From the NCBI RefSeq assembly GCF_000311845.1, contig NZ_HE978574.1:62001-126000 (forward strand): a DNA stretch of 64,000 nucleotides, written 5' to 3'. The position numbers and the translations under genes are program-made. Origin of the DNA: Enorma massiliensis phI (GTDB taxonomy: Bacteria; Actinomycetota; Coriobacteriia; Coriobacteriales; Coriobacteriaceae). Under the pieces are notes generated by a model. That model ran no database searches and was not told the DNA's origin. It saw nothing but the letters and a program-made list of their open reading frames with translations. Below are positions 40,280 through 40,578 of this stretch, in pieces; the first letter of the stretch is position 1; every line of letters starts with the position of its first letter.

Positions 40280-40355
40280 GGGGGTATAGCTCAGCTGGGA
40301 GAGCGCGGGCTTTGCAAGCCTGAGGCCAGGGGTTCGAACCCCCTTACCTCCACCA
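40280..40355 (+). tRNA. tRNA-Ala (anticodon TGC)
   Basis: A complete cloverleaf: acceptor GGGGGTA with TACCTCC (one G-T pair), anticodon loop TTTGCAA, T-arm GGGGTTCGAACCCC, encoded CCA at 40353-40355. Its last 21 nt are repeated 187 bp downstream. Confidence 0.95.
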
Positions 40356-40362
40356 AGAATTA

Positions 40363-40578
40363 TGAAAGCCTCGCTACGGCGGGGCTTTTCCATACCCAAG
40401 GAGGGAGCATGGGGTTCGAACCCCGTTTGGGGCGCGGAGCGAAGCAAACGCGCGAGCGTTTGCCGCGCAGCGCGCAAGGCGGCGCAGCCGCCGCAGCGGA
40501 AAGAGCGCGCGCAGCGCGCGGCGAACCCCCTTACCTCCACCAAGAATCCGAAAGCCTCGCTACGGCGGGGCTTTTTCG
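40363..40578 (+). repeat. tRNA-tail element behind tRNA-Ala
   Basis: After a terminator (AAAGCCTCGCTACGGCGGGGC then TTTT) come: a palindromic T-arm copy GGGGTTCGAACCCC (40411-40424); a perfect hairpin GCAAACGC-GCGA-GCGTTTGC (40444-40463); GGCGGC-GCA-GCCGCC (40478-40492); GCGCGC-GCA-GCGCGC (40505-40519); an exact copy of the tRNA's last 21 nt (40522-40542); and the terminator again, nearly identical. The order of parts matches the element after tRNA-Gly, but the hairpin sequences differ while keeping their pairing. Confidence 0.75.

Follow-up and report, generated by a model that had tools for sequence, protein, structure and literature searches.

Gene-free, hairpin-rich inserts behind tRNA and tmRNA genes of Coriobacteriaceae match their host gene at both ends

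Two tRNA genes of Enorma massiliensis phI, both within the 64,000-nucleotide stretch of contig NZ_HE978574.1 analysed here (the window; positions 62,001 to 126,000), are each followed by a small insert belonging to a family of folded elements whose ends match the tRNA gene behind which they lie. The family stands far beyond chance, as judged from covariation in 116 copies and from host-specific ends. It occurs in most sampled Coriobacteriaceae, including the Collinsella common in the human gut, at up to 20 copies per genome, and is apparently undescribed. On the reading we favour, to which we give about an even chance, these are non-autonomous mobile elements, ∼120 bp long, with the T-arm of tRNA and tmRNA genes as their target and a folded single strand as their substrate.

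The initial annotation of the window described inserts behind tRNA-Ala and tRNA-Gly with the same parts in the same order, and we found every one of these parts in place. The tRNA-Ala insert occupies 40402-40521 and the tRNA-Gly insert region 5476-5690, with the following components.

40280..40355, + strand: host tRNA-Ala(TGC), intact (ARAGORN; Rfam tRNA, 68 bits)
40335..40401, + strand: duplicated host segment, left copy (the tRNA from nt 56 to its CCA end, the terminator and TACCCAAGG), compared with 40522-40587
40364..40389, + strand: terminator 1 of tRNA-Ala, identical to 40550-40575
40411..40424, + strand: invT, the inverted copy of the host T-arm, GGGGTTCGAACCCC, reverse complement of the T-arm at 40329-40342; its 5' part is the left side of P1 and its 3' part enters P2; the host match is family-wide
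40411-40418 paired with 40522-40529, + strand: P1, closing stem of the Ala insert (RNA fold)
40422..40431, + strand: P2, small hairpin (CCC ... GGG) of the Ala insert (RNA fold; covariation)
40432..40475, + strand: P3, long hairpin of the Ala insert (fold; covariation; loop types)
40444-40451/40456-40463, + strand: 8-bp stem at the P3 tip, GCAAACGC-GCGA-GCGTTTGC, with a GNRA loop (seen directly)
40478..40492, + strand: P4, hairpin GGCGGC-GCA-GCCGCC with a GNA triloop, Ala insert (fold; covariation; loop types)
40505..40519, + strand: P5, hairpin GCGCGC-GCA-GCGCGC with a GNA triloop, Ala insert (fold; covariation; loop types)
40522..40587, + strand: right copy of the host segment, with the tRNA 3' end to CCA (40522-40542) and then terminator 2; 40522-40529 is the right side of P1 (repeat comparison; fold)
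40550..40575, + strand: terminator 2 behind tRNA-Ala, identical to terminator 1
5401..5475, + strand: tRNA-Gly(CCC), host of the window's second insert (tRNA search)
5528..5540, + strand: inverted T-arm copy of the Gly insert, CGGACTCGAACCG (seen directly)
5558..5577, + strand: P3 tip of the Gly insert, GGAAATGC-ATGA-GCATTTCC (sequence; fold)
5592..5606, + strand: P4 of the Gly insert, GGGTGC-AAG-GCGCCC (sequence; fold)
5617..5631, + strand: P5 of the Gly insert, ATTCGC-GAA-GCGAAT (sequence; fold)
5635..5655, + strand: copy of the tRNA-Gly 3' end, followed by terminator 2 at about 5665-5689 (repeat comparison)

The repeats flanking each insert are exact over 26 nt and lie 187 bp (Ala) and 180 bp (Gly) apart. 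Comparison of the parts also changed how some of them are described. The duplicated part had been given as the 21-nt end of the tRNA, which is indeed present, but behind tRNA-Ala the duplication runs on through the terminator for about 66 bp in all (40335-40401 versus 40522-40587). What had been called a T-arm palindrome is an inverted copy of the host T-arm, and is palindromic only because the T-arm of tRNA-Ala is; its counterpart in the Gly insert is CGGACTCGAACCG. The hairpins already named are real, but folding revealed further helices that had been overlooked: P2, P4, the base of P3 and the stem P1 that closes the fold. No gene fits inside the Ala or Gly insert, which hold a tRNA end, a terminator and hairpins only, and a coding function was rejected on this ground.

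The family folds into five helices, the inverted host T-arm pairing with the 3' copy (P1) to enclose hairpins P2-P5. In 116 copies, aligned by fitting to the model and hence biased towards it, 94.4% of the cells assigned to pairs were paired, changes on both sides were seen in 33 of 34 pairs, and 742 cells were compensatory compared with 203 ± 15 after shuffling. The covariation score was 0.492, as against 0.124 for shuffled alignments and at most 0.066 when the model was slid by 1-3 columns, so that despite the fitted alignment neither control came anywhere near the observed value. Selection on RNA or single-strand DNA structure, previously proposed from the perfect pairing of dissimilar stems at two loci, is thus strongly supported by covariation over many.

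The tip of P3 is a GNRA loop, and P4 and P5 end in GNA triloops that are mostly closed by C-G. Mispairs are distributed unevenly between the strands (G.T 89 versus A.C 36; G.A 65 versus C.T 31), which identifies the tRNA-sense strand as the one that folds. Folding energies fall below those of shuffled sequences with both RNA parameters (z from -0.7 to -3.5) and DNA parameters (z from -3.2 to -4.2), and therefore do not discriminate between the two. The GNRA loops of P3 favour RNA. In DNA, GNA triloops with GC closure have exceptional stability; these triloops, together with the rarity of G.T pairs (2.4% of cells), favour DNA. The substrate that is recognised is most likely a folded single strand, of either DNA or RNA.

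A host gene was detected within 450 nt of 104 of the 111 copies and belonged to one of 23 kinds, tmRNA included, the usual spacing between tRNA end and element being 48-68 nt. Among the seven copies lacking a detected host, three (L064, L104 and L106) follow a tRNA end that was displaced by another integrated element or rearranged, one (L154) comes after a tRNA-Leu truncated at the contig edge, and the remaining three are at the start of a contig, which leaves their host out of view. Overall, apart from two or three copies at a contig edge, all 111 lie behind a tRNA, a tmRNA or the displaced 3' part of a tRNA.

Both ends of the element follow the host. Each copy had been said to match its own host tRNA, and this held across 104 loci: over 15 nt from tRNA nt 59, the 3' copy matches its own host at 14.33 positions on average and other hosts at 8.85, the own host is strictly the best match in 93/104, and these first 15 nt are perfect in 83/104. 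At the other end, the 7-nt loop of invT is the exact reverse complement of the host loop in 96/104, compared with a mean of 29 and a maximum of 42 when host labels were shuffled 2000 times. The T-stem complement over three bases agrees in 95/104 (shuffled mean 73, maximum 80). The whole 17-nt T-arm discriminates less, the own host being strictly best in 30/104, because T-stems resemble one another.

At L064 (1200-1500) the element is preceded by the C-terminal end of a tyrosine integrase gene, which ends in a tRNA-Ser-gct 3' copy, and at L106 by other foreign sequence ending in the same kind of copy; a separate integrated element uses the same tRNA-Ser-gct target here. One might view the insert itself as a decoy: the host would retain it as an attachment site that draws phages and islands away from the functional end of its tRNA. 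Integration usually targets tRNA and tmRNA genes (PMC4383910), and the 3' end is retained in the copy. At L064 and L106, however, the foreign DNA is integrated upstream of the insert rather than inside it, and P2-P5, the inverted T-arm and their covariation would be left unexplained. We consider a decoy extremely unlikely.

How an element acquires the sequence of its host had been posed as an open question. The element is flanked on either side by a copy of the same host segment, which starts in the T-loop (nt 54-61) and stops a little beyond the terminator. Terminator 1 has a median local score of 29 of 42 against its own terminator 2, compared with a median of 7 against those of other loci; the similarity lies above the 95th percentile of background in 51/75 loci and not in the other 24/75. 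Since terminators are alike within a locus and not between loci, the tRNA end and terminator are host DNA duplicated in place, not sequence carried by the element, and each 3' copy matches its own tRNA because it derives from the end of that very tRNA. The idea that the element carries a fixed island end was rejected, the terminators being similar only locally. Local duplication therefore answers the question for the 3' copy and the terminator, and only partly for the inverted T-arm. The latter lies inside the element and should thus come from the donor, and its match would have to be kept by pairing with the copy or the target. L143 and L144 carry related cores at two Arg tRNAs with inverted arms that match only partly, as expected if the arm adapts after a move.

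The 3' copy starts at tRNA nt 54-61, mostly 56-59, so that this junction always falls within the T-loop; the right junction lies in a narrow window and the left junction is variable. A T-loop attB, a regenerated target and a displaced fragment are the signature of islands inserted by T-loop tyrosine integrases (PMC1762012, PMC4383910). With the junction always at nt 54-61 and a separate integrated element sharing the Ser-gct target at L064, the inserts could be minimal islands of this type, in which the tRNA end was regenerated, the right copy is the displaced fragment and the integrase comes from elsewhere. We regard this as quite unlikely. No integrase or other gene is present within the 120-190 bp, an island would be expected to bring its own terminator, yet the terminators match locally and not those of other elements, the ends of 23 host kinds cannot sit on one circle, and the inverted T-arm and P2-P5 would have no role.

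The similarity is not limited to the two loci of the window; such a limitation would have told against the structural claim. A search with a covariance model built from 11 copies, custom models for which E-values are rough, found the element in 53 of 67 Coriobacteriaceae genomes with up to 20 copies in each; under strict filters it was found in 89 of 397 Coriobacteriales genomes. The genomes surveyed were mostly drafts. Matches in other Coriobacteriales families were weaker, but in the 12 genomes inspected nearly all loci had a same-strand tRNA just upstream, and 18 loci from these families viewed in sequence had the same parts. Among 396 sampled Actinomycetota genomes, only Coriobacteriaceae scored at 1e-4. 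Among named organisms, Collinsella and Olsenella are the nearest relatives. Rfam covariance models returned only tRNA, tmRNA and sub-threshold matches, none of them credibly over P2-P5 and none to the core at E ≤ 0.1, and no description of the element was found in open-access papers; the family appears to be new.

In the genome of the window the insert also lies behind Ser-gct, Ser-tga, Val-tac (lacking the right copy) and Leu-taa (shortened). Behind Arg-cct lies a variant in which tRNA end, terminator and inverted T-arm form another kind of tandem duplication. At this locus (L039:526-900, G000) only half of the inverted T-arm is present and an unrelated 36-bp spacer replaces P2-P5; it may be decayed or a different type of element. 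Another variant, at tRNA-Leu-caa of G010 and G009 (L289 and L321), keeps only the 3' half of the inverted T-arm, its copy starts earlier in the T-loop (TTCGAGTCTCG), and its core is of the GTTAAG/GTAGC type otherwise known from other Coriobacteriales families. Across Collinsella we also encountered a MITE-like repeat of 35-40 bp in inverted pairs ∼190 bp apart (for example L101:1306-1345), which is unrelated to the tRNA element.

Similarity between cores does not sort them by host, nor strictly by genome. In 78/108 cases the closest core sits at another kind of host, and copies at other hosts in the same genome win by 45 to 39 over copies at the same host elsewhere. Within a single genome, cores 90-94% alike can occupy different tRNAs while each carries the 3' end of its own host (Glu and Arg-ccg in G126; Ser-gct and Leu-taa in G379). 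An empty site is seen in G001, a genome of the same genus, where tRNA-Ala is followed by one terminator and then by the same PTS EIIA gene as in the window; this genome has no element at any tRNA examined. Behind tRNA-Val, Collinsella species have 0 (L230), 1 or 2 units, and two complete genomes differ at Gly-tcc, Leu-cag, Ser-gct, Gly-gcc and Glu-ttc. Units also form tandem arrays, ranging from 0 to 3 between related genomes, with three at L174. Recombination between the long direct repeats suffices for gain and loss of units, but arrival at a new tRNA needs another mechanism.

Two loci deserve separate mention. L061 (1309-1450; tRNA-Ala of G004) has a 5'-truncated second copy of tRNA-Ala between the intact gene and the element. 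L176 (G369:C10, host Ser-cga) has a core 98% like that of L182 together with a 3' copy and inverted arm of the Ser-gct type; it may represent a recent move, an exchange between loci or a chimeric assembly, and we set it aside as a caught transposition because the genome is a draft of short contigs and the assembly possibly chimeric. As for carriers, viral contigs held no exact core and phage records none, and a plasmid carrier was rejected, the one match resembling a chromosome-sized Collinsella record.

A structured non-coding RNA, made by read-through of the terminator and retained for a function in tRNA supply or maturation, would account for a fold conserved across an order, with GNRA loops and sense-strand asymmetry, for the retention of copies (the 83/104 perfect over the first 15 nt) and for the occupation of the same genes, Val-tac and tmRNA, in several genera. 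The inverted T-arm of such an RNA would invade the upstream tRNA or pair with the downstream copy as a switch or decoy. However, the element sits right behind a terminator with no promoter-like site found in the window copy, the same-genus genome G001 does without it at every tRNA examined, unit number and host set vary freely, and the 23 kinds of host are unrelated. On balance we think a functional RNA of this kind unlikely.

We looked for enzymes that might move the element. Y1 transposases are present in 47 of 53 element-bearing genomes, but Y1_Tnp had no match in G006 and G008, which carry 15 and 20 copies, and model R2 run over 20 regions around Y1 genes found only the known tRNA-borne copies. 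A RAYT-like Y1 transposase gene (L269:423-1373, G000:C1) lies directly behind tRNA-Lys-ctt, flanked by inverted copies of GCAAAACCAGGACAGAGGGATTTTTGCATG, probably its REP sequence; many Collinsella genomes have a Y1 gene at a distance of 4-5 kb from the Lys-ctt element. We rejected RAYT/Y1 as the driver, since the repeats around the gene examined are of another kind and some genomes rich in the element lack Y1. Reverse transcriptase was likewise rejected, as RVT_1 shows no association with the element (17/53 genomes with it versus 5/14 without). The narrow right and variable left junctions, the host-derived 3' copy and the GNRA loops would suit target-primed reverse transcription in the manner of a bacterial SINE, in which element RNA would pair through invT and a nicked tRNA strand would prime copying at its 3' end, leaving a precise right and a variable left junction. 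The scarcity of RVT_1 among bearers, its similar frequency in non-bearers and the lack of any match in complete genome G010, with 16 copies, make this very unlikely.

If the inserts are mobile elements, as we favour, insertion would take place between a break in the T-loop and another just behind the terminator. Gap fill-in or repair would then duplicate ∼65 bp of host DNA, leaving the tRNA intact and the host's displaced end as the right copy. The inverted T-arm would be a guide or half-site that has to match the target T-arm, evolving to match after each move, and recombination between the long direct repeats would subsequently expand, shrink and homogenise the arrays. The insertion boundaries in this scheme are inferred from comparisons of genomes less close than near-identical strain pairs with and without the element. 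Against the mobile-element reading, Y1 transposases and reverse transcriptases do not fit as drivers, and in 24 of 75 loci the likeness of the two terminators does not rise above background. The last unit of many arrays is moreover partial yet retains its invT, a feature not predicted by simple target duplication, and the occupation of Val-tac and tmRNA in several genera could reflect retention for function. A nucleic-acid-guided element is a tentative possibility: the inverted T-arm would pair with the T-arm of a tRNA or tmRNA gene and direct insertion, the tRNA end and terminator would be duplicated so that the target is never broken, and guide and target would co-evolve. Such an element would be a non-coding parasite of the entire tRNA gene set.

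The T-arm shared by tRNAs of many kinds and by tmRNA is where the element attaches, and both its ends carry host sequence. If it is mobile, a gene-free strand of DNA or RNA can find and colonise tRNA genes harmlessly; if it is a functional RNA, it constitutes an order-wide and so far unexamined layer of tRNA-linked RNA. The fold, hosts and empty sites described here make the choice between mobility and function directly testable in culturable bacteria.

Among known systems, the T-loop class of tyrosine integrases, exemplified by phage Ms6 (PMC1762012), and tDNA islands, for which tRNA and tmRNA genes are the usual targets (PMC4383910), are closest in geometry, although integrase and fixed target end are absent here. 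As in islands of the Islander type (T-loop class), the break point is in the T-loop, with an intact tRNA on one side and a 3' fragment displaced from the crossover site on the other, tmRNA is also used and tandem arrays form. The element differs in its size of about 120-190 bp, with no integrase or other gene (187 bp for Ala, 180 bp for Gly), in its many tRNA species, and in having a locally duplicated terminator, a conserved multi-hairpin fold and an inverted host T-arm. In place of an attP with the fixed end of one target, we found shared cores with their own ends at 23 kinds of host.

REP and REPIN sequences of RAYT Y1 transposases are similarly short, non-coding, hairpin-forming, intergenic, non-autonomous and numerous within a genome; the element, in contrast, lies strictly behind tRNA and tmRNA genes, its ends follow the host and it has five helices. 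The RAYT gene at L269 is flanked by a different repeat, and copy-rich G006 and G008 have no Y1 match. A SINE-like retroelement would call for reverse transcriptase in trans, whereas RVT_1 is found in 17/53 bearers and not in G010. Integron cassettes with their attC sites also come as tandem units, and there the recombination site lies in the outer arms of a folded, imperfect inverted repeat; P1 and the tandem units seen in sequence may correspond to such an arrangement at the unit boundaries. The element differs in its tRNA T-loop target, its lack of a cassette gene and arms that change with the host. Like P1 and P10 of a group I intron, invT is complementary to both sides of the insertion point in the T-arm, but the core of ∼110 nt from guide to copy lacks group I domains, no Rfam model, such as one with a P3-P8 catalytic core, matched it at E ≤ 0.1, and the host tRNA is complete without splicing. 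Finally, as in the target-site duplication of transposons, host sequence flanks the insert on both sides; here, however, the duplication is ∼65 bp long, always extends from the T-loop to just past the terminator, and is accompanied by an inverted copy of the target inside the element.
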